Source: Microbacterium ginsengisoli (GTDB taxonomy: Bacteria > Actinomycetota > Actinomycetes > Actinomycetales > Microbacteriaceae). Taken from it: a stretch of 64,000 bases of DNA. The translations under genes and the position numbers were made by a program. The notes beneath the pieces are model-generated. The model was not told where the DNA came from, ran no database searches, and saw only the letters and a list, made by a program, of their open reading frames with translations. Shown in pieces: positions 2,688-32,031 of this stretch. Position 1 is the first letter of the stretch. The number at the start of each line of letters is the position of its first letter. The stretch covers positions 1 through 64,000 of the forward strand of contig NZ_JYIY01000069.1 of NCBI RefSeq assembly GCF_000956535.1, given 5' to 3'.

Positions 2688-3968
2688 GTGATCGATCTGG
2701 CGCTTCTGCGTGACAACCCCGAGCTGGTCAAGCGTTCTCAGACGGCTCGCGGTGAGTCGCCCGACACCGTCGACCGCGCCCTCGCGGCGGACCGCGCCCG
2801 GCGCGCGGCGCTCACGACGTTCGAGGAGCTGCGCGCGGCGCAGAACGCGCACGGCAAGAAGGTCGCCCAGGCTCCGAAGGAGGAGAAGGCGGCGCTCGTC
2901 GCCGAGGCGAAGACGCTCAGCGAACAGGTCAAGCAGGCGCAGGCCGCGGTCGGGGAGGCCGAGGCATCCGCCGACGAGGCTCTCGCGGTCATCGAGAACA
3001 TCGTGGTCGACGGGGTGCCGTCCGGCGGCGAGGACGACTTCGTCACCCTGCGCACGCACGGCGGCGAACCGACATTCGATTTCGAACCGCTCGACCACCT
3101 GGCGATCGGCGAGAAGCTGGGCGCGATCGACATGGAGCGGGGCGCCAAGGTCTCCGGGGCCCGGTTCTACTTCCTCACCGGCATCGGGGCGCGTCTCGAG
3201 ATCGCGATCATGTCGCTCGCGCTCGACCGTGCGCTGCAGGCCGGATTCACCCCGATCATCCCGCCGACGCTCGTGCGACCCGAGGTGATGCACGGCACCG
3301 GGTTCCTCGGCAAGCACTCCGCCGAGGTCTACCACCTCGACGAGCAGGACCTCTATCTCGTCGGCACGAGCGAGGTGCCGCTCGCCGGGTACCACATGGG
3401 CGAGATCATCGACCTCGACCGTGGGCCGAAGCGCTACGCCGGCTGGTCGACCTGCTACCGCAGCGAGGCGGGCTCGTACGGCAAGGACACCCGCGGCATC
3501 ATCCGCGTGCACCAGTTCAACAAGCTCGAGATGTTCGTCTACACGACTCCCGAGGCCGCCGAGGAGGAGCATCTGCGCCTCGTGGCCCTGCAGGAGGGGA
3601 TGCTGCAGGACCTCGGCCTCTCCTACCGGGTCATCGACGTCGCCGCGGGCGACCTCGGCTCGAGTGCCGCACGCAAGTACGACGTCGAGGCGTGGGTGCC
3701 CACGCAGGGCTCGTACCGCGAGCTGACGAGCACGTCGAACTGCACGACGTACCAGGCGCGTCGCCTCGACATCCGGTACCGTCCGGCGGTCGAGTCGGGT
3801 GCGCCGGCGAAGGCGCAGCACGTGGCCACCCTCAACGGCACGCTCGCGACCACCCGCTGGATCGTCGCCCTGCTCGAGACCCACCAGCGCGCGGACGGCT
3901 CGGTGACGGTGCCCGAGGTGCTGCGCCCCTACCTCGGCGGGCTCGAGGTCATGGAGCCGGTCGCGTGA
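2688..3968 (+). CDS. serS: Seryl-tRNA synthetase
   Basis: Charges tRNA-Ser with serine in the cytoplasm. The 426-residue protein has the N-terminal [17 protein letters not shown] start and coiled-coil arm (residues ~30-105), then class II motifs: motif 2 ([25 protein letters not shown]) and motif 3 ([15 protein letters not shown]). The start is GTG 2688. TAGACT at 2676-2681 ends 6 nt upstream, so the mRNA is probably leaderless. The stop overlaps the GTG of the next gene. A serine tRNA gene lies about 1 kb downstream. Confidence 0.98.
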
Positions 3969-6507: not shown

Positions 6508-6599
6508 GGAGACGTCGCATAGTCAGGCCTAGTGCACCACCCTGCTAAGGTGGAGTCCCCGTAAGGGGACCGAGGGTTCAAATCCCTCCGTCTCCGCCA
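6508..6599 (+). tRNA. tRNA-Ser (anticodon GCT), prophage integration site
   Basis: GGAGACG (6508-6514) pairs with CGTCTCC (6589-6595), discriminator G6596 and an encoded CCA. Anticodon GCT is at 6544-6546 in loop CTGCTAA between CCACC and GGTGG. The long variable arm (AGTCCCC...GGGGACC) marks serine. The T-arm and 3' end form the left copy of the phage attachment core, so the gene stays functional after integration. TATGCT at 6466-6471 is a likely -10. Confidence 0.97.
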
Positions 6600-6600
6600 G
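6572..6600 (+). repeat. attL core
   Basis: GAGGGTTCAAAT...CTCCGCCAG, 29 bp, identical to 47672-47700. It covers the T-arm, the acceptor 3' strand and CCA of tRNA-Ser(GCT), plus one further G. Sequence diverges immediately to the right (phage) and continues as tRNA to the left. Confidence 0.95.
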
Positions 6601-6674
6601 TGTTTCCAAGGGTTTCCAGCTCGCAAGTTGACACAGACTCGAAAAGTGTTGACGTAGCCCCTACTCTTACGGGC

Positions 6675-7778
6675 ATGGCGAGCGTGCGGAAGCGGGTCCA
6701 ACGGACCGGGACGGCGTCGTTCGCGGTGCTCTGGCGTGACCCTCAGTCGGGCCGCCAGACGAGCATGACCTTCCCGACCGAGACCGAAGCGGAGACGCTT
6801 CGTCGACTGCTCGACGCGAACGGCCAGAGCTTCGCGATGGCGGAGCAGATGCTCGAAGCTGCGGCATCACGCTCGCCGACCGTTACCGATTTGCTCGAGC
6901 GGCACCTCTCGCTACTCACGCGCGCCAACGAAGGCACGATCGCGGGCTACCGTTCGATGATCGCGAATCACGTCACCGAGCAGATCGGGGGCCTACGCGT
7001 CGACGCTGTGACGGATGAGCACATCGCAGCGTGGGTGCAGCGTCAGCGTAGGGAGGGCGCGACGAGGAAGTCGATCGCGAACCGCATGGGGCTGCTGTCG
7101 AGCGCATTCAAGCTCGCTGTGCGGAAGGGTTGGCGGGGTGACAATCCGTGCGAGCTCGTCGATCTCCCGAATGAGGATCGCGCCGGGCGCCGCGCGACTT
7201 TCCTGACCAAGGCGGAGTTCGACGCCCTTCTCGCCCACGTCCCCGCGCGACATCAACTCCTCACACGAGTGCTCGTCGGCACGGGCATGCGCTTCAGTGA
7301 GGCGACCGCTCTGACATGGAACGACCTGCACCTCGACGCTGAGATCCCTTTCATCCAGGTCGACAAGGCGTGGAAGGGCGACGAGCGCCGGCGTTTCTAC
7401 ATCGGTTCGACGAAGAACACTCCGAGCGATCGCGACGTGTCGATCACGCGCGCACTTGCCGACGACCTCCGTTCCGCGGGGCGCCCACATGATCTCGTCT
7501 TCCCCAACACGCTCGGGTCGCAGCTCACGAACACGACATTCCACAACCACGGCTGGCAGGACGCCGTCGACGCAGCGAAACTTCGGAAGGAGCCACGCCC
7601 TCACGACCTACGGCACACGCACGCCTCGTGGCTGCTGCAGGAGGGCGTCCCCATCTTCGTGGTCTCCCGCCGCCTCGGTCACAAGTCCGTGCAGACGACG
7701 ACGCAGATCTACGGGCACCTCATGCCGCAGGCAATGAAGGACGCCGCGGACGCCATGTCGCGGATAGAGGCGCGATAG
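6675..7778 (+). CDS. int: Tyrosine-type phage integrase
   Basis: A 367-residue recombinase next to attL. An N-terminal arm-binding part (VRKRVQRTGTASFAVLWRDP) and core-binding SAM-like domain (~70-160) precede the catalytic domain. Catalytic residues seen are R206 (GTGMRFSE), K247 (GSTKNTP), H310 and R313 (PHDLRHTHA), H336 (LGHKSVQ) and nucleophile Y346 (QIYGHLM). It should catalyse attP x attB recombination at tRNA-Ser(GCT). The start is ATG 6675; TACTCT at 6662-6667 ends 7 nt upstream, so the mRNA may be leaderless. Confidence 0.95.
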   Translation: MASVRKRVQRTGTASFAVLWRDPQSGRQTSMTFPTETEAETLRRLLDANGQSFAMAEQMLEAAASRSPTVTDLLERHLSLLTRANEGTIAGYRSMIANHVTEQIGGLRVDAVTDEHIAAWVQRQRREGATRKSIANRMGLLSSAFKLAVRKGWRGDNPCELVDLPNEDRAGRRATFLTKAEFDALLAHVPARHQLLTRVLVGTGMRFSEATALTWNDLHLDAEIPFIQVDKAWKGDERRRFYIGSTKNTPSDRDVSITRALADDLRSAGRPHDLVFPNTLGSQLTNTTFHNHGWQDAVDAAKLRKEPRPHDLRHTHASWLLQEGVPIFVVSRRLGHKSVQTTTQIYGHLMPQAMKDAADAMSRIEAR

Positions 7779-24999: not shown

Positions 25000-25848
25000 T
25001 CAGGCCGTGACCGTGACGAGCGCGCTCGCCAGCGAGTCGGGACGGACGTTCTTCGCGCCGTAGAGCAGGAGGCCCTTGACGGCGTCGGAGAACGAGGACT
25101 GGGGCCGGTACGCCTCGACCTTGTTGATCTGCTCGGCGAACGTGATCGCACGGTCGTTGCCGGCGATCGTCGCGAACTCCGACCCGGACGTGTTCGGGGC
25201 GTTGTTCGAGAGGAGGATGTCGAAGCCGGCGGCGCGGCCGACCATACCGTTGCGGAGGCCCTCCGACGTGCCCGCCTCGTTCACCTTGATGAAGCGGGGG
25301 TCGCGGAGCAGAACACCGTGGAAGTCGGGGGTGACCACGACGGACCGGTTCTGGGTAGCGACGTTCGCCTTGTCGAGGCGGACCTTCAGGGGGACGAGGA
25401 CGTTGTCGTACGCCTGCGAGGGGGTCGCGGCGGAGACGCTGATCGAGCCGAGCTGGTTGGCCGTCTGGATCGACGTGTAGAACGATGCGATGTACTGGTC
25501 CACCGTGTCGGCGAACGCGTACGCAGCCTCGTCCTTCAGCTGGTCGAGGATGCCGCCCTTCGCCTGCCGCTTGTCGACGTCGTCGACCTGGAAGGCGAAG
25601 AACTTCGCCTGGTCCACGACGAGGGTGCGCTGGCTGTCCGCGACCGTCTCCGGGGAGATGACCGTCTGACCGGGCACGTAGTTCGCGATCGTGGGGCGAC
25701 CGACCGACGTGATGCGGACGGTGTCGCCCGCTTCGGCGATCTCGCCTTCGTAGTCGCGGTTCGTGAACGCGCTGTACACGAGGGACTTGCGGAGAGCGAC
25801 GAGGAGCAGCGCGCTCCAGATCTCCGGCTTGAACTTGTTGAAAGCCAC
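25000..25848 (-). CDS. Major capsid protein (HK97 fold, P22 coat-like family)
   Basis: 282 residues. The opening FNKFKPEIWSALLLVALRKSLVYSAFTNRDYEGEIAEAGDTVRI and the E-loop/P-domain pattern (ADSQRTLVVDQAKFFAFQVDDVDKRQAKG) match actinophage P22-coat-like major capsid proteins. The C-terminal block (RAITFAEQINKVEAYRPQSSFSDAVKGLLLYGAKNVRPDSLA) is also typical. It lies after the scaffold gene with a good Shine-Dalgarno (AAAGGAG). Confidence 0.93.
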   Translation of the reverse strand: MAFNKFKPEIWSALLLVALRKSLVYSAFTNRDYEGEIAEAGDTVRITSVGRPTIANYVPGQTVISPETVADSQRTLVVDQAKFFAFQVDDVDKRQAKGGILDQLKDEAAYAFADTVDQYIASFYTSIQTANQLGSISVSAATPSQAYDNVLVPLKVRLDKANVATQNRSVVVTPDFHGVLLRDPRFIKVNEAGTSEGLRNGMVGRAAGFDILLSNNAPNTSGSEFATIAGNDRAITFAEQINKVEAYRPQSSFSDAVKGLLLYGAKNVRPDSLASALVTVTA

Positions 25849-26582: not shown

Positions 26583-27050
26583 TCAGGCGATGTGCGCGAA
26601 CAGGAACCAGCGGTCCTTGTCGAGGCCGCGAGCGATCTCGATGACCACGTCCTGCGACACCTGATCGATCTCGTCGAGCGCTTCCACCGCCGCACGGACC
26701 GTCGCGAGAGCCGCGTCGATCTGGGCCAGCACCTGCGCGATGAGGGCGTCCGACTGCGCGAAGCCGGGCGTGATCGGGGGGAGCGTCGACTGCGCTTGCA
26801 CCGTCGCGAGGTTCGCGTCCACGGGGCTGCCGAGAGCGATGATGCGTTCCGCGGCGAGGTCCGCATAGTCGAGCGCGTTGTCGACGAGCTTGTCGAGCAG
26901 CTTGTGCACGCCGATGAAGTTCGCGCCGCGCACGTTCCAGTGCGCCTGCTTCGCCTCCAGGACGAGCGCCTGACAGTCGATCACGACCGGGAGGAGCGCC
27001 TTCGTGACGCCGGTGACAACAGCCGTGGGGATCGTCGTCGCGTTGACCAT
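26583..27050 (-). CDS. Dps-like ferritin-fold protein in the capsid operon
   Basis: 155 residues from ATG 27050 with AAGGAGAG upstream. The Dps ferroxidase set is complete: H37 (AHWNVRG), H49 and D53 (GVHKLLD), D64 and E68 (YADLAAERI). The spacing 12/4/11/4 is the same as in E. coli Dps (H51, H63, D67, D78, E82). The N-terminal tail is short and hardly basic, so DNA binding is uncertain. Known Dps proteins oxidise iron with peroxide inside a 12-mer shell. Its place between the minor head and scaffold genes implies late expression. Confidence 0.88.
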   Translation of the reverse strand: MVNATTIPTAVVTGVTKALLPVVIDCQALVLEAKQAHWNVRGANFIGVHKLLDKLVDNALDYADLAAERIIALGSPVDANLATVQAQSTLPPITPGFAQSDALIAQVLAQIDAALATVRAAVEALDEIDQVSQDVVIEIARGLDKDRWFLFAHIA

Positions 27051-27222
27051 GTCTCTCCTTCGAAGTTGGGGGCGTGGTGGGCGTCCGCTGGCTGCGTTCC
27101 CCGTTAGGCGGCACCTGAGCCGCACCCACCACTTCGCGCTTAGCGACCGCGATACGTCGAGCCGATGAACATGGCGTCCCATGCCCTCTTCTCTGGAGGC
27201 AAACCCAGCGCTGATGACCCGG

Positions 27223-29133
27223 CTACCGGATGGGAGTCGGGAGCTTGATACGGCCGTCGGTCAGATCGACCTGCTCACGGCGGGAGTCGCGGGCGAACCC
27301 GGTCTCGGCGATGAAGTCGCGGATCTTCGCCTGCCCGGCCTGCACCTTCGTGCGCGCGTCCGCGCGGGTCTCCGGGGACACCGCGAACTCGAGCTGCCGC
27401 TTCGCTTTCCGCACCTCAAGTTCGAGGCGACGCTGCTTCTGCGACAGGTCGTAGTTCGCCTGCATCTCCTCGGCCCACACCTGCGGTTCCGGGAGGACCG
27501 TCACCCCCGGGTAGACGGGCAGGAGCGTGTGGCGGCAGTTATGTACTAAGATCGAGCTAGCGACGTAGGCGCCCGTCGACGTTTGGAGGTCGTAGGCATG
27601 CCCTTCGAAGTGAAGGAACTCGACGTTGACCAACTCGTCCGGCTCTACACCAGCGGCGAGACCGCTGAGAATCTCGCTCACCGATTCGGCGTCAGCGACA
27701 CGACGATCCGTCGGCGTCTCCGCGACCGCGGCGTCAGCATCCGCCAGGGTCCGAGCTACCGCACCATGGACACAGAGGCTGTCAAGCAGCGCCGCGCGCG
27801 CACCCGTTCCCAGAAGGGCCTGCACATCGGCCCGCACGAAGTCGCTTTCGCTGCCCTGCTCGACGCCGCGGGACTCCACTATCGGCAGCAGCCGCCGATC
27901 GGCCACTACAACCTCGATTTCGCCCTGGATGAAGCGCCCATCGCCGTGGAGATCGTCAGCGGCGGCGGGAACTCGCGCCAGGCCTCCCAGCGCCGCGAGC
28001 GCATCGAGTTCGTCCTCGAACGTGGTCTGTGGGTCGTGGAGATTCACGTCCGGTACGGGAACCAGTTCCGGACGCTCACTACTGGCAGTGCTGAATACCT
28101 GCATGCCCTCGCGGAGAGCCTTCGCGGGCAGCCATCCGGTCGCGGTGAGCACCGGATGATCTGGGCTGACGGTGAGGTCATGACCCCGCGCAGTCGTCAG
28201 GTGTACTGACGGGCCGGAGTACCACGCCTTCACGCCGTTCTCAGCCTCACCGAGCACCCGAACCGGGCCGTTTCCGAGGATCGCATTCGGGTGGAACAGG
28301 CCCGCCGCGGTCGCTTCCGCGATCGTCGCGTCGACGGGCAGAGCGGGGAACGGGACCGGGGCGAACGTGAGCACGCGGCCCTGCCACGGGAAACACAGCG
28401 GGCACGGGTGACCCGTGTCGTCGACAGTGAAGTACTCCACGCCGAGCGCCTGCATCCGGGCCAGATGGGACGCGTTGTACGCCCGGGTCGCCGCGGTGCG
28501 CACCGCCATCTCCACGTACGCCGACAGCGACCAGTTCCGGCCCGACTTGTCGGTGAACCCGGTGATGCCCTGCGACACGAACACCCGCCACGCCATCGCC
28601 TGCGCTTGCGCCGGCGTGACCTGGTTGTCGAGCACCTGCCGTATCGCGCCGTTCGGGGCGATCATCTTGTAGATGTCGTCGGGGAGGCGGGTGATGCGGA
28701 ACCGCACATCCGCGAGCGACGATGTGATGTCGTCGCGGATCGCGCGCGCCGCCCGCTCACCATGCGACAGGGACAGGTCGAACGGTTCCCCGCCGGGGAG
28801 GGTCACGTCACGGCCTGGGGGGACACGGCCGCCCGCACCGCCGCCGGCACGAAGCGCGCGCTCGAGCACGAGCTCCGCGTCGCGGCGTCCCTCCGCCGAC
28901 GCGGCCGTGACCATCGCCTGCAGCATCGGCGTGGACCGTGCCGTCAGGTACGTGAGCACCTGCCTCACCAGCAGGCGGGCACGGTTCAGGATCATCGCGT
29001 CCCGCTGAACCGACCACGGTGCACGCAGCACAGCGGTCAGGCCCGCGAGGAGTTCGTGCTCAGCGAGGACGTACAAGCCGATCAGGGCCGCCGCGATCTG
29101 CTGCGACGACGGCTCAGACGGCTGCTGCGCCAT
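27223..29133 (-). CDS. Minor head (MuF/SPP1 gp7-like) protein interrupted by an intein
   Basis: 636 residues as read. Residues 1-283 and 533-636 together form an ordinary minor head protein: helical N-terminus, WSLSAYVEMAVRTAATRAYNASHLARMQALG, the zinc-like GHPCPLC, then LFHPN joined to CRHTLLPVYPG. The C-terminal tail is basic and helical. Residues 284-532 are an intein (separate entry). After splicing the product would be 387 residues. It overlaps the portal gene end by 20 nt. It should sit at the portal vertex and help head morphogenesis or DNA ejection. Confidence 0.92.
   Translation of the reverse strand: MAQQPSEPSSQQIAAALIGLYVLAEHELLAGLTAVLRAPWSVQRDAMILNRARLLVRQVLTYLTARSTPMLQAMVTAASAEGRRDAELVLERALRAGGGAGGRVPPGRDVTLPGGEPFDLSLSHGERAARAIRDDITSSLADVRFRITRLPDDIYKMIAPNGAIRQVLDNQVTPAQAQAMAWRVFVSQGITGFTDKSGRNWSLSAYVEMAVRTAATRAYNASHLARMQALGVEYFTVDDTGHPCPLCFPWQGRVLTFAPVPFPALPVDATIAEATAAGLFHPNAILGNGPVRVLGEAENGVKAWYSGPSVHLTTARGHDLTVSPDHPVLTATGWLPAKALREGMQVFSTASSERPELVPVPDVNLHDPQTTFEDELDALAALGGLARVPAAADDLHGDGRFIQGEIEVVVADRRLLPIVESRGVEQGSESDFVRADVQALLGTGARAALLDSLCVHGAVARTLADADAAVAETPTDRRVADAESVSEILSGLAAGVEPDELVNVEFLHFEGHAYDLQTSTGAYVASSILVHNCRHTLLPVYPGVTVLPEPQVWAEEMQANYDLSQKQRRLELEVRKAKRQLEFAVSPETRADARTKVQAGQAKIRDFIAETGFARDSRREQVDLTDGRIKLPTPIR
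27585..27590 (+). promoter_or_regulatory. Shine-Dalgarno of the antisense nuclease gene
   Basis: GGAGGT ends 7 nt before ATG 27598. On the other strand the same bases lie within intein codons for Asp-Leu-Gln (block F). A strong ribosome site at this exact place supports real translation from ATG 27598 rather than from TTG 27583. Confidence 0.8.
27598..28209 (+). CDS. Vsr-like/EDxHD homing endonuclease encoded antisense inside the intein
   Basis: 203 residues, fully inside the intein DNA and on the opposite strand to all structural genes. An N-terminal resolvase-type HTH (residues 12-48: LVRLYTSGETAENLAHRFGVSD) precedes a nuclease domain: E81 (IGPHEVAF), D107 (GHYNLDFAL), E118 (IAVEIVSGGG), and GLWVVEIHV. 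This is the pattern of Vsr-like EDxHD/DUF559-related homing nucleases. The His usually found after the GG turn is not obvious. Among the first 60 codons I count 48 G/C third positions versus 40 for the antisense reading, so this strand looks like the better coding one here. It would cut intein-free copies of the head gene. Confidence 0.85.
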   Translation: MPFEVKELDVDQLVRLYTSGETAENLAHRFGVSDTTIRRRLRDRGVSIRQGPSYRTMDTEAVKQRRARTRSQKGLHIGPHEVAFAALLDAAGLHYRQQPPIGHYNLDFALDEAPIAVEIVSGGGNSRQASQRRERIEFVLERGLWVVEIHVRYGNQFRTLTTGSAEYLHALAESLRGQPSGRGEHRMIWADGEVMTPRSRQVY

Positions 29134-30718
29134 CGGCCTGACCGAACGGGTTCATGGTCGGGTCGGGGAGCGTGTGCGCGAACTCGTCCTTGATCTTGGC
29201 GACCTCTTCACCGATCTGCGTCTCGTCCCAGTCGGGGTGCAGCATGCTGACGCGCTCCTCGACGGACGCGGACTCCGACGCGTACAGGGCCTGCACGGTC
29301 TGCGCGAGACGCAGCTGCGACTCCTGCACCCCGTCGGAGAACTCGACCTGCACGCCCTCGGTCGGGTTCGGGTGGTTGAAGAACACCCGGTCGATGGCGA
29401 GCAGCTTCTCGACGTACTCCTCGAGCGCGGGACGCCAGATGCGGATCTTCCGGGCGCGGGTCATCAGGGAGCGGCGTTCGCGGGCTTCGATCTCCGTCGC
29501 GGTCCGGTCGCCGCGCTGGTCGCCCTGCACACCGAACGTCGACATCGAGTAGCCGGCCATCTGCAGGATCTGCTCGATCAGCTCGTCCGCGGTCGCCTTG
29601 TACCCGGCAGGGTCGAACGTGGGCTGCATGACGTTCATGCGGTCCGCCATCGACAGCGGGGCCGGCGAGGAACCCGAGTTCGCTGACATGTCGGTGGAGA
29701 CGTACGTCTCCTGGTCCATGTCGATCACGGACGCCTGGCCGGGGCCGGCGGACTTCGCGAGTTCCTTCGCGACCAGCACGCGAGCGCGCGCGGCGCGGCG
29801 GGCACGCATCCAGTCCGACATGGTCTCCGCGAGCTGATCCATCAGGTGCTCGATGCCGTCGAGGTCGGAGCGGCCGAGGTTCTGCCCGAGGGGATCCTTC
29901 CGCCACGACCGGTTCGGGGTCTGGTTCGGGACGTACACGACCGCGAGACCCGGCGAGCCGGTGCTGATCGTGCCCTCACTGTTCAGGTCGGTGTACACGG
30001 CGAGGGGGGCCGTCTCGGGTCGGGAGGAGAGCGGGATGCGGATGCCGAGGGTCGTGTCGTCGCCGACGTACAGGCCGTGGAGGATCACGCCGACGCCCGT
30101 CGAGGTGAGTTCGTGGCGTTCGAGGTGTCGCCACACCTGCTTGCCGTCGCGGGCGACGACCGCCCAGAACGTGACCGCGGTGAGCACACCGAACCGGAAC
30201 TCGGGGATCGCTTCGTCCGCGTCCTTCACGGTCGTGAATGGGGCATCCGGGTTCAGTGTGTCGTCCCACGTGACCCGCAGGTACACGCCGCCGAGCGCCG
30301 CGGACATCTCCGCGGCCTCCGCGATCGACGCGTGGAACCCGTCGTCCAGGAGTTCACCGAGCCGCGCCTGCGCCGCCTCGTCCGTGTGGGTCACGGTGAC
30401 CGGGTCGGAGAACAGCAGGTCCGCGGACGCCTGGCAGATCTCCGCCGCGATCGGGACGGGCAGTTTCGTGTTCAACTGTGTGCCGACGGCGGGCTGCGCG
30501 ATGAACCAGCGGATCGGGCCGAGGGAGTGGACCTTCATCCCGCCCGTGTCGGACGCGAAGAACCCGGTCCGGTCGGGCATGAGGCCGCCGCCGTACACCG
30601 CCTGCAGGCGGGCGAGGTCGTTCGCCCACCATGCGCCCCACCGGGCCATCGCGGGGAGCAGGTTGTCGAGAACCTTCGGCGGCCACTGGGCGGTGGTGGA
30701 GGACGCGGGAAGCGGCAT
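29114..30718 (-). CDS. Portal protein
   Basis: 534 residues from ATG 30718; the 20 extra upstream codons are Arg-rich. The start (LLPAMARWGAWWANDLARLQAVYGGG), core (DAAEICQASADLLFSDPVTVTH...ALGGVYLRVTWDDTLNPDAPFTTV) and the C-terminal helical crown (YKATADELIEQILQMAGYSMSTFGVQGDQRGDRTATEIEARERRS) match actinophage SPP1-type portals. The dodecameric ring is the DNA entry gate and binds terminase. Confidence 0.93.
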   Translation of the reverse strand: MPLPASSTTAQWPPKVLDNLLPAMARWGAWWANDLARLQAVYGGGLMPDRTGFFASDTGGMKVHSLGPIRWFIAQPAVGTQLNTKLPVPIAAEICQASADLLFSDPVTVTHTDEAAQARLGELLDDGFHASIAEAAEMSAALGGVYLRVTWDDTLNPDAPFTTVKDADEAIPEFRFGVLTAVTFWAVVARDGKQVWRHLERHELTSTGVGVILHGLYVGDDTTLGIRIPLSSRPETAPLAVYTDLNSEGTISTGSPGLAVVYVPNQTPNRSWRKDPLGQNLGRSDLDGIEHLMDQLAETMSDWMRARRAARARVLVAKELAKSAGPGQASVIDMDQETYVSTDMSANSGSSPAPLSMADRMNVMQPTFDPAGYKATADELIEQILQMAGYSMSTFGVQGDQRGDRTATEIEARERRSLMTRARKIRIWRPALEEYVEKLLAIDRVFFNHPNPTEGVQVEFSDGVQESQLRLAQTVQALYASESASVEERVSMLHPDWDETQIGEEVAKIKDEFAHTLPDPTMNPFGQADGAAAV

Positions 30719-30738
30719 CAGTGACCTCCCGTCGCGGG

Positions 30739-32031
30739 TTAGAACGTGTGCGGTCGCGGGCCGACTTCGTCGCGCCATTCGTGTTCGGTGGATGCGACGA
30801 CGTACCGGAACGCGTCGAGGGAGTCGTCGCCGACCTTGATCGGTTCGTCGAGGCCCTTCTCCGTGGCCTTCGGGTCGTACCGGTAGTCGGGCATTTCCTT
30901 GATGACGCCCGTGCAGCGGTCGGTGACCTTCATGAGCCCGCGGGCGAGGAGCGACGCGATCAGGCCGATGCCGTACGCGACCGCGTTGTCAGCTGCGATC
31001 GTGTCGACGCCTTCCGACTCGCGCAGCTCCTGCCGGAACGGTGCAGCGGCGGGGTCCGCGAAGATCAGTTCCGGTCGCAGGTGACCCTCGGGGAGGTGGT
31101 TAGCCTTCAGCCATACGGCGATCGCTTTCGCCTGCTGGCTGGGGGACTGGCGTTGCGTCTGCGCGTCCGCTTCGATCCGCAGCTCGTCGATCAGGTACAG
31201 CTTCCGGTCGTAGCCGAGGCCGAGGAGCACCACCGACGTGGCGTGCTGGATACCGAAGTCCATGCCGACGCCGAGGAGCCGGTACATCGGGGGCAGGTTC
31301 TCCCACGCGATGACGTGCTCGGCGGGGTCCCAGCCGTCGTAGATCGCGCCCTCAGCGTTCGTCCACAGGCCGCGGATGAACCGGTCGAAGAACAGCTTGC
31401 TCTTGCGGAACGCGGCTTCCATGTCGGCGATGTACGCCGGGCCCGGGTCGCCGCCCTCGAAGTAGAGCGGGTTGTCGTGCATCGTGAAGTGGAACACGAT
31501 CATGTTCTGCGCGACGGCGTCGAGGATGTACTTCACACGCAGCCAGTGCTGTGACGAGCCGGGGTTCGTGGTCGCGAGGAGCCGGGCGCCGGCGACGCGG
31601 AGACGGGTGAGGAGCATCGCCCAGAACGCCTCCGGGACCAGCGTCGCCTCGTCGACGTACGCGAGCTCGATCGTCGAGCCTCGGATCTTCTCCTCAGAGC
31701 GGGCATCGTTCGCGCCGACAAGGTGCACGACCCGGCCGAGGATCACCGCCGTGTTCGACCCGGTCGTGTGCTTCACCTGCTTCGCGAGACGCCCGTACAG
31801 TTCGGGCTTCTGCATCTCGCCGATCACGTTCCGCTCGATCGTCTGCAGCGTCTTCCCGACGATGACGATCAGCCCGCGGCCGCGCGTGTGACGGATCGCG
31901 ATGAACAGCGCGAACAGCGACACCATCGTCTTCCCGGCGGACACCGCACCAACCCACAGCGCGATCTTCCGCGACGACGCGCGCGCGATGCTCCACCGCT
32001 GCTTCCGCGACAACGCCGGCGGACGAGTCAC
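30739..32031 (-). CDS. Terminase large subunit
   Basis: 430 residues. Walker A is GAVSAGKT (28-35), Walker B ELAYVDEA (122-129), coupling motif LATTNPG. The C-terminal nuclease has GVGMDFG, IFADPAA and DDSLDAFRY acidic residues. It packages DNA into proheads. GTG 32031 overlaps the small-subunit stop (GTGA). Confidence 0.95.
   Translation of the reverse strand: MTRPPALSRKQRWSIARASSRKIALWVGAVSAGKTMVSLFALFIAIRHTRGRGLIVIVGKTLQTIERNVIGEMQKPELYGRLAKQVKHTTGSNTAVILGRVVHLVGANDARSEEKIRGSTIELAYVDEATLVPEAFWAMLLTRLRVAGARLLATTNPGSSQHWLRVKYILDAVAQNMIVFHFTMHDNPLYFEGGDPGPAYIADMEAAFRKSKLFFDRFIRGLWTNAEGAIYDGWDPAEHVIAWENLPPMYRLLGVGMDFGIQHATSVVLLGLGYDRKLYLIDELRIEADAQTQRQSPSQQAKAIAVWLKANHLPEGHLRPELIFADPAAAPFRQELRESEGVDTIAADNAVAYGIGLIASLLARGLMKVTDRCTGVIKEMPDYRYDPKATEKGLDEPIKVGDDSLDAFRYVVASTEHEWRDEVGPRPHTF

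Follow-up and report, generated by a model that had tools for sequence, protein, structure and literature searches.

The stretch of Microbacterium ginsengisoli DNA analysed here, 64,000 nucleotides of contig NZ_JYIY01000069.1 that we refer to as the window, carries on its minus strand a phage minor head gene interrupted by an intein, and on its plus strand, nested within that intein, a gene for a predicted nuclease (Table 1). The intein is inserted after FHPN of the minor head protein. The nuclease and intein frames have common codon boundaries on opposite strands, with sense position 3 facing antisense position 1 and vice versa. The nuclease start is preceded, at a distance of eight bases, by the Shine-Dalgarno sequence GGAGG, and the stop codon is found opposite intein Ser26, between blocks A and B, which leaves the whole gene inside the intein. 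An earlier sequence-only reading of this DNA had proposed the intein and a complete open reading frame (ORF) with its own Shine-Dalgarno sequence, starting antisense to block F and stopping ahead of block B. Both pairs of coordinates hold, and the two ends of the gene are opposite His229 and Ser26. Very probably, this is a phage minor head intein whose opposite strand holds, in exact register, a complete gene for a nuclease predicted to be the homing endonuclease that spreads the intein.

Table 1. Features of the interrupted minor head gene and of the nuclease gene on its opposite strand (window coordinates).
Feature	Position	Strand	Evidence
Phage minor head gene with intein	27223..29133	-	PHROG 581 E 4e-61; Pfam Phage_min_cap2 E 1.5e-34
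Exteins of minor head gene	28285-29133 and 27223-27537	-	Flank the intein
Intein, 249 residues, Ala1 ... His248-Asn249, then Cys+1	27538..28284 (Ala1..Asn249 = 28284..27538)	-	Pfam Intein_splicing, Hint fold, intein-less alleles
Intein block A region, Ala1 onward	28246..28284	-	Sequence
Intein block B, GHDLTVSPDHPVLT (S/TxxH), overlapped by nuclease C-terminus	28144..28185	-	Sequence; both frames constrained in relatives
Intein block G end VHN, before Cys+1 at 27535-27537	27538..27546	-	Sequence
Intein motif DLHGDG, opposite nuclease beta strand PIAVEI bearing E118	27937..27954	-	Antisense-polarised region, 25/29 pairs
Antisense nuclease gene, 203 amino acids + stop, in codon register with intein	27598..28209	+	ORF, homologues
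Shine-Dalgarno GGAGG of nuclease, GAG opposite Leu233 (CTC) of block F	27585..27589	+	Sequence; codon choice
Nuclease start ATG, opposite block F His229 (CAT)	27598..27600	+	Start conservation; codon choice
Nuclease helix-turn-helix (HTH), residues 9-43	27622..27726	+	HTH_7 E 8e-5; PHROG 664 E 2e-7; modelled helices
Vsr/I-Bth0305I-like nuclease core, residues 79-150	27832..28047	+	Profile and structure matches; conserved residues

Judged from profiles and a modelled fold, the plus-strand protein is related by both sequence and structure to the I-Bth0305I and Vsr nucleases, and it is predicted to cleave DNA. The identity first suggested for it, an HTH domain joined to a Vsr-like nuclease, is borne out, and a match to a nuclease family, the lack of which had been named as a possible refutation, exists: a profile built from 49 family members finds 3hrl (E 6e-7) and 3r3p (E 4e-5) when run with hmmsearch against the PDB, the latter being, by its name in the Foldseek output, the catalytic domain of I-Bth0305I. 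PDB matches to the HTH part rank higher (2lvs, E 5e-9; 8vd6, E 5e-8). For the window protein alone, Pfam HTH_7 reaches 23.1 bits, just under its cut-off of 23.8, and DUF559 reaches 18.0 bits against a cut-off of 20.6; 11 of the 49 family members match DUF559 at E 0.01. An AlphaFold model based on a 40-row alignment has a mean predicted local distance difference test score (pLDDT) of 90.6 and consists of an HTH, with helices at residues 10-18, 23-30 and 34-43, followed by the nuclease core. With this model as query, Foldseek places 1vsr (probability 1.00) and 3r3p (probability 0.99) among its top rows, at E 0.009-0.02. The core residues of the window protein are E81, Y104-N105-x-D107, E118 and R135; E81 and D107 are each shared by 48, and Y104 and E118 by all, of the 49 members. 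When the window nuclease was used as a single query against 5.8 billion predicted proteins, 2 matches were found at E 1e-3, both annotated in Corynebacterium.

On the minus strand, the splicing signatures SPDHP and VHN/C (a slash marks a splice junction) belong to the same ORF as the host protein; blocks A, B, F and G are named here by the usual convention. Pfam Intein_splicing gives 21.7 bits for the window intein, under its cut-off of 35.8. AlphaFold, run on a 17-row alignment, gives two confidently modelled Hint halves (residues 1-66 and 201-249) and a linker with pLDDT below 50 at residues 70-85 and 130-195; the best Foldseek matches of this model are inteins. H43 and N249 are invariant in the 17 alignment rows, and Asn is followed by Cys at the C-terminal junction in 24 of 24 aligned rows. 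Position 1 is Ala in 7 of 40 loci, the window included, and Cys in 31 by pattern and in 2 more by eye. With its Ala1, the window intein lacks the Cys or Ser that marks position 1 of class 1 inteins. It combines Ala1 with Cys+1; class 2 (KlbA-like) inteins are those with Ala1 that use Cys+1 as nucleophile. Class 3 inteins are defined by a Cys in block F (WCT), and block F of the window intein, GHAYDLQT, contains none. Nor is there an in-frame homing endonuclease of the kind found in other inteins, the nuclease being on the plus strand and the sense linker largely below pLDDT 50. One part of the linker, residues 91-129 (27898-28014), which faces the nuclease active site, differs from the rest in having a mean pLDDT of 71-82. 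This modelled confidence may reflect a real fold of the sense frame or an echo of antisense conservation.

To follow the arrangement beyond the window, 142 loci were gathered from phage records, IMG/VR and one genome, making 143 sequences with the window. The set includes repeat fetches of the same contigs, and the tests use clusters or non-overlapping pairs. Nine sequences were not parsable (L073, L069, L075, L122, L074, L003, L068, L142 and L018), and the parsable ones form 56 clusters at 70% identity. Splicing halves in one ORF bracket an opposite-strand nuclease in 134 of the 143 sequences, and the antisense nuclease is in exact register, as had been proposed for the window, in all 134 parsable sequences from all 56 clusters. 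A tblastn search of 50,697 phage records gave nuclease matches in 107 (three of them Acinetobacter) and intein matches in 116, and the hosts of phages with the nested arrangement include Salmonella, Escherichia, Pseudomonas, Vibrio, Gordonia, Rhodococcus and Mycobacterium. The sequence-only reading had suggested a search for inteins of the same family without an opposite ORF. With sense-intein queries, the best nuclease match was opposite the intein block in 79 of 81 loci, and 74 of the 81 pass the full bracketing test; the two loci without such a match are L068, whose contig ends 50 codons in, and L142, a distant match with no C block and 10 antisense stops. The sense-query matches were confirmed by tblastn with the whole intein, a procedure that may under-sample linker-less mini-inteins. 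Matches in 88 of 199 genomes of the host family were mostly to the HTH part and are not used as evidence.

The open antisense frame is kept even where base composition does not favour it. Across the 40 loci of the open-frame test, the G+C content (GC) of the exteins ranges from 0.40 to 0.74, and improbable open frames, with log10 P down to -13.4, are kept in phages of extein GC 0.40-0.57. The chance probability of the open antisense frame is 10^-13.4 for Vib1.113, 10^-10.0 for VibrioH2 and 10^-9.8 for 1N2-2. Two further observations concern individual records. On the L073 contig (1803-3720), two antisense nuclease matches were found (1848-2646 and 3033-3720), possibly representing two such inteins near each other. 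The vB_StyS-sam record (L007 2697-3098, plus strand) lists a hypothetical ORF of 402 bases that is inside the intein and on the nuclease strand, in a frame that differs from that of the nuclease.

The start signal of the nuclease is embedded in block F, and the codons used there favour antisense translation. Counts are based on the 46 of 56 clusters in which a pattern recognised block F. The codon opposite the block F His position is ATG in 40 of these clusters, GTG in 5 and TTG in 1. The block F His is encoded by CAT in 40 of 45 cases, where 17.7 are expected from the extein codon usage of each phage (P 6e-15), and the block F Leu by CTC in 31 of 43 clusters, where 9.3 are expected (P 5e-14). 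No such preference is found in the control region, the 20 sense codons beyond the Shine-Dalgarno sequence, with CAT for 9 of 30 His (expected 11.0) and CTC for 11 of 53 Leu (expected 13.6). The extein codon samples are very short in two clusters (16 codons in L115 and 48 in L092). The synonymous choice at the block F His and Leu is unneeded by the sense protein, but needed by the antisense start and Shine-Dalgarno sequence.

Substitutions show on which strand selection acts. We compared 30 non-overlapping pairs, picked greedily by identity without a tree; in 10 of them the exteins could not be compared, being too short or less than 35% identical. In the core, differences at sense positions 1, 2 and 3 number 2716, 1323 and 1947, and position 1 exceeds position 3 in 29 of 30 pairs, the polarity of a gene on the antisense strand. 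The exteins of the same genes are sense-polarised, with 1520, 1199 and 2689 differences and position 3 above position 1 in 20 of 20 usable pairs. Over the last 30 nuclease codons, on the block B side, the rates are 0.232, 0.125 and 0.292; position 1 exceeds position 3 in just 8 of 27 pairs, and 19 of 27 are sense-polarised. Polarity is not clear in the first 14 nuclease codons (5/15 and 12/20). A second test asked how conservative the changes are. Core changes that are silent in the intein frame are much more conservative in the nuclease than expected (z 11.4), and those silent in the nuclease are slightly conservative in the intein (z 2.9). In the last 30 codons, changes are conservative in both frames (nuclease z 3.7, intein z 3.0). 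These values rest on the assumption that changes are independent, with transitions weighted by 2, and sense constraint in the core is measured without a clean neutral rate.

Polarity and conservativeness along the overlap thus divide the constraint into three parts. The core evolves as a nuclease gene, with the head protein read off its opposite strand, and the intein frame there amounts to little more than a read-through linker. The block B end is two-coded, with both frames constrained. What the two strands share at block F is the start and Shine-Dalgarno sequence rather than protein chemistry. The sequence-only reading had supposed that both strands must be functional over the splicing motifs. 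Its interpretation is supported, with the refinement that constraint on the strands is not equal everywhere: both frames are constrained at the block B end, block F carries the start and Shine-Dalgarno sequence with no clear protein constraint, and in the core it is mainly the nuclease that is under selection. Codon choice at the start and Shine-Dalgarno sequence, core polarity and the avoidance of stops at lower GC all favour the view that the antisense frame is translated.

A natural control is provided by Acinetobacter phage IME285 (L018 413-1348 and 1342-2127), in which an intein-less minor head gene is directly followed by a convergent, free-standing homologue of the nuclease. The opposite in-register frame of this homologue has 13 stops in 311 codons. 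As a query, it matches 71 phage records, 3 at 99% identity or above (at least 99%) and 68 at below 60%; the best of the matches below 60% among 40 of the 71 listed is Aaphi23 (L017; 34% over 94%, E 1e-27), and this match falls within the minor head gene, antisense to it. As the IME285 homologue has no intein and 13 opposite stops, the antisense homology is not merely mirrored intein homology. It is plausible that the free-standing convergent gene is a precursor or a relic of the nested arrangement.

Intein-less alleles and discordant histories together indicate that the element is mobile. Alleles that lack it exactly are joined at HPN/C, the closest being P0007 (FHPN/CKH), with exteins 86% identical, and P0009 is a further one. 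Among 120 listed homologues of the head protein, 78 are intein-less at HPN/C, 21 bear an intein and 21 do neither. P0006 and P0008 have exteins that are 87% and inteins that are 60% identical; for the window and P0006, the values are 53% and 80%. Absence from empty alleles and horizontal spread are what is expected of a homing element. In the loci examined, the site is HPN/C or its equivalent, before a Cys of the head protein, and the insertion places differ in fEg-Eco06 and Sejanus. In Virus Rctr197k (L024 2459-3346), the intein with its antisense nuclease was observed in a protein that the record names head morphogenesis and that we take to be a deoxycytidylate deaminase from its looks.

We propose the following model for the element. 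Antisense transcription would give the nuclease as a separate protein, which would bind via its HTH and cut the intein-less head gene near HPN/C, and repair would copy in the intein together with the nuclease gene. The head messenger RNA would be translated straight through; the antisense-derived stretch would serve as a mostly disordered linker and be looped out, and the Hint halves would splice the intein out. It also seems likely, and we say so with good confidence, that the window holds one representative of a widespread class of two-strand phage homing elements, with an intein on one strand and its homing endonuclease on the other in the same codon register, the nuclease start in splicing block F, and a linker that is the sense reading of the nuclease's antisense codons. 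This class would have spread to different hosts and insertion sites, and possibly to different host genes, with its register fixed across the 56 clusters.

Several observations weigh against this interpretation. Given the intein protein and the codon usage of the phage, the open antisense frame of the window alone has a log10 P of -0.4; it is unsurprising by itself, and the case therefore rests on the relatives. In 10 of the 56 clusters, the pattern did not recognise block F. The first 14 codons give a weak z of 1.7 for the nuclease (n=20) and a z of -0.7, not conservative, for the intein (n=29). Foldseek returned no match below E 0.001 for the nuclease model, and the top two places in its list go to a transposase and a ribosomal entry. 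The His of the EDxHD motif (+2 to +8 of E118) is found in 28 of the 49 family members and is absent from the window protein. A scan of 27000-28400 for sigma-70-like promoters found none, which is weak evidence because the phage is GC-rich (70% in the exteins). Finally, there are decayed copies: in REQ3 the HTH and the block F start are missing, in L098 a stop codon separates two HTH parts of the antisense frame, and in L122 both strands are broken up into different frames. The sequence-only reading had named inteins with a broken plus frame and a conserved minus frame as speaking against it; just a few decayed examples such as REQ3 and L098 (one antisense stop) come near this description.

The log10 P of -0.4 for the window, and the fact that the in-register antisense frames of homologous genes can yield mirrored tblastn matches, would suit a view of the antisense ORF as a by-product, open because high-GC coding has few TTA, CTA or TCA codons and homologous because it mirrors the homology of the intein. 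We consider this hardly credible, since the frame stays open at extein GC 0.40-0.57, IME285 has a free-standing homologue without an intein, block F codons are chosen to suit the start and Shine-Dalgarno sequence, and substitution polarity in the core is reversed. Accordingly, a chance antisense ORF was rejected on open-frame statistics, start and Shine-Dalgarno codons, polarity and the free-standing homologue, and mirrored homology on the last of these.

Alternatively, the antisense gene could be real and the intein frame dead, an unspliced but tolerated insertion like the ShiLan element described below. Invariant H43 and N249, the unbroken Asn-Cys of the C-terminal junction, the sense polarity of the block B region, the predicted Hint fold and Cys1 in most loci examined make this very improbable, even though constraint on the intein frame is weak in the core and the window has Ala1 in place of Cys or Ser. 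The antisense protein might also be expressed without being the homing enzyme of this intein, acting as a regulator, as its HTH domain would allow, or as a nuclease against competitors; its nuclease activity is a prediction, and the EDxHD His is not conserved. We regard such a role as very unlikely in view of the nesting of the gene in the intein in 134 of 134 sequences, the intein-less alleles and the discordance between inteins and exteins, the likeness to the I-Bth0305I domain, and the free-standing form at the 3' end of the same target gene.

The element can be compared with several known systems. I-Bth0305I, an EDxHD enzyme that resides in a phage group I intron, has a related catalytic domain (by profile and fold) and a separate DNA-binding part, but the His of xHD is not conserved in the antisense nuclease family. 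The head intein of Guernseyvirinae (Snoke, UPWr_S, fEg-Eco06) is the same element as here. Its sense intein is annotated in the Snoke and fEg-Eco06 records and mentioned for UPWr_S phages in PMC8425127; the record regions and text portions examined do not note an antisense gene. Inteins of the PI-SceI/TliVMA type likewise consist of Hint halves with a nuclease between them and home into empty alleles, as we presume for the present element. In a review and a structural paper (PMC3943268, PMC8966425), however, intein nucleases are described as in-frame fusions, whereas here the nuclease has its own gene on the other strand. Homing genes antisense to a self-splicing element have been described for group I introns of nuclear ribosomal DNA, I-DsqI and Dir.S956-2; according to the sections available (PMC9548176), the host there is an RNA intron, the gene is in a peripheral segment, and the other strand encodes no protein. 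The ShiLan domain of a mycobacteriophage methylase, an HNH endonuclease encoded out of frame (Arsenault et al., 2025; PMC11855218), is similar in hiding a nuclease within an insertion that is kept open in the host frame. As far as the accessible text goes, it differs in using another frame of the same gene, with no splicing domain and no detectable ribosome-binding site, and not the opposite strand of an intein with a conserved Shine-Dalgarno sequence.

The sequence-only reading knew of no described case, and the literature agrees as far as it was covered. The parts seen of PMC6669764, PMC3556154, PMC1508164, PMC1635734 and PMC3322345 contain no antisense nuclease of an intein, and none within an intein was found among the titles and abstract openings listed from the open-licence literature searched, a scope that leaves subscription papers largely outside. 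On the evidence of sequences, then, a nuclease on the other strand of a mobile intein is real, widespread and undescribed in that literature, with a putative activity in homing.

Whether long antisense overlaps can encode two functional protein families is a matter of dispute. In this case, nature supplies dozens of divergent replicates, a free-standing gene for reference and a polarity that switches along the overlap, and coding on both strands can be tested directly. The arrangement demonstrates a way for an intein to carry a nuclease that is not fused to it, and the free-standing nuclease gene, convergent with the target gene and next to it, hints at how intein and nuclease may have come together. 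It also offers an explanation for the conserved DFHGDG motif of these inteins, as the antisense of a nuclease active site. Gene callers and intein surveys can overlook nucleases of this kind.

The minor head gene (27223-29133) is part of a structural cluster on the minus strand, together with terminase (30739-32031), portal (29114-30778) and capsid (25000-25848) genes. For three of its homologues, P0008, P0101 and P0112, an extra PF18451 domain is listed, and P0008 has the intein as well. The adjoining ORF at 26583-27182 on the minus strand matches PHROG 3636, 'DNA binding protein' (E 1e-25); we take its sequence to resemble Dps, presumably an unusual gene within a structural cluster. At 6508-7778 on the plus strand, tRNA-Ser(gct) is directly followed by an integrase (PHROG 1, E 9e-74), which is likely to mark a prophage end.

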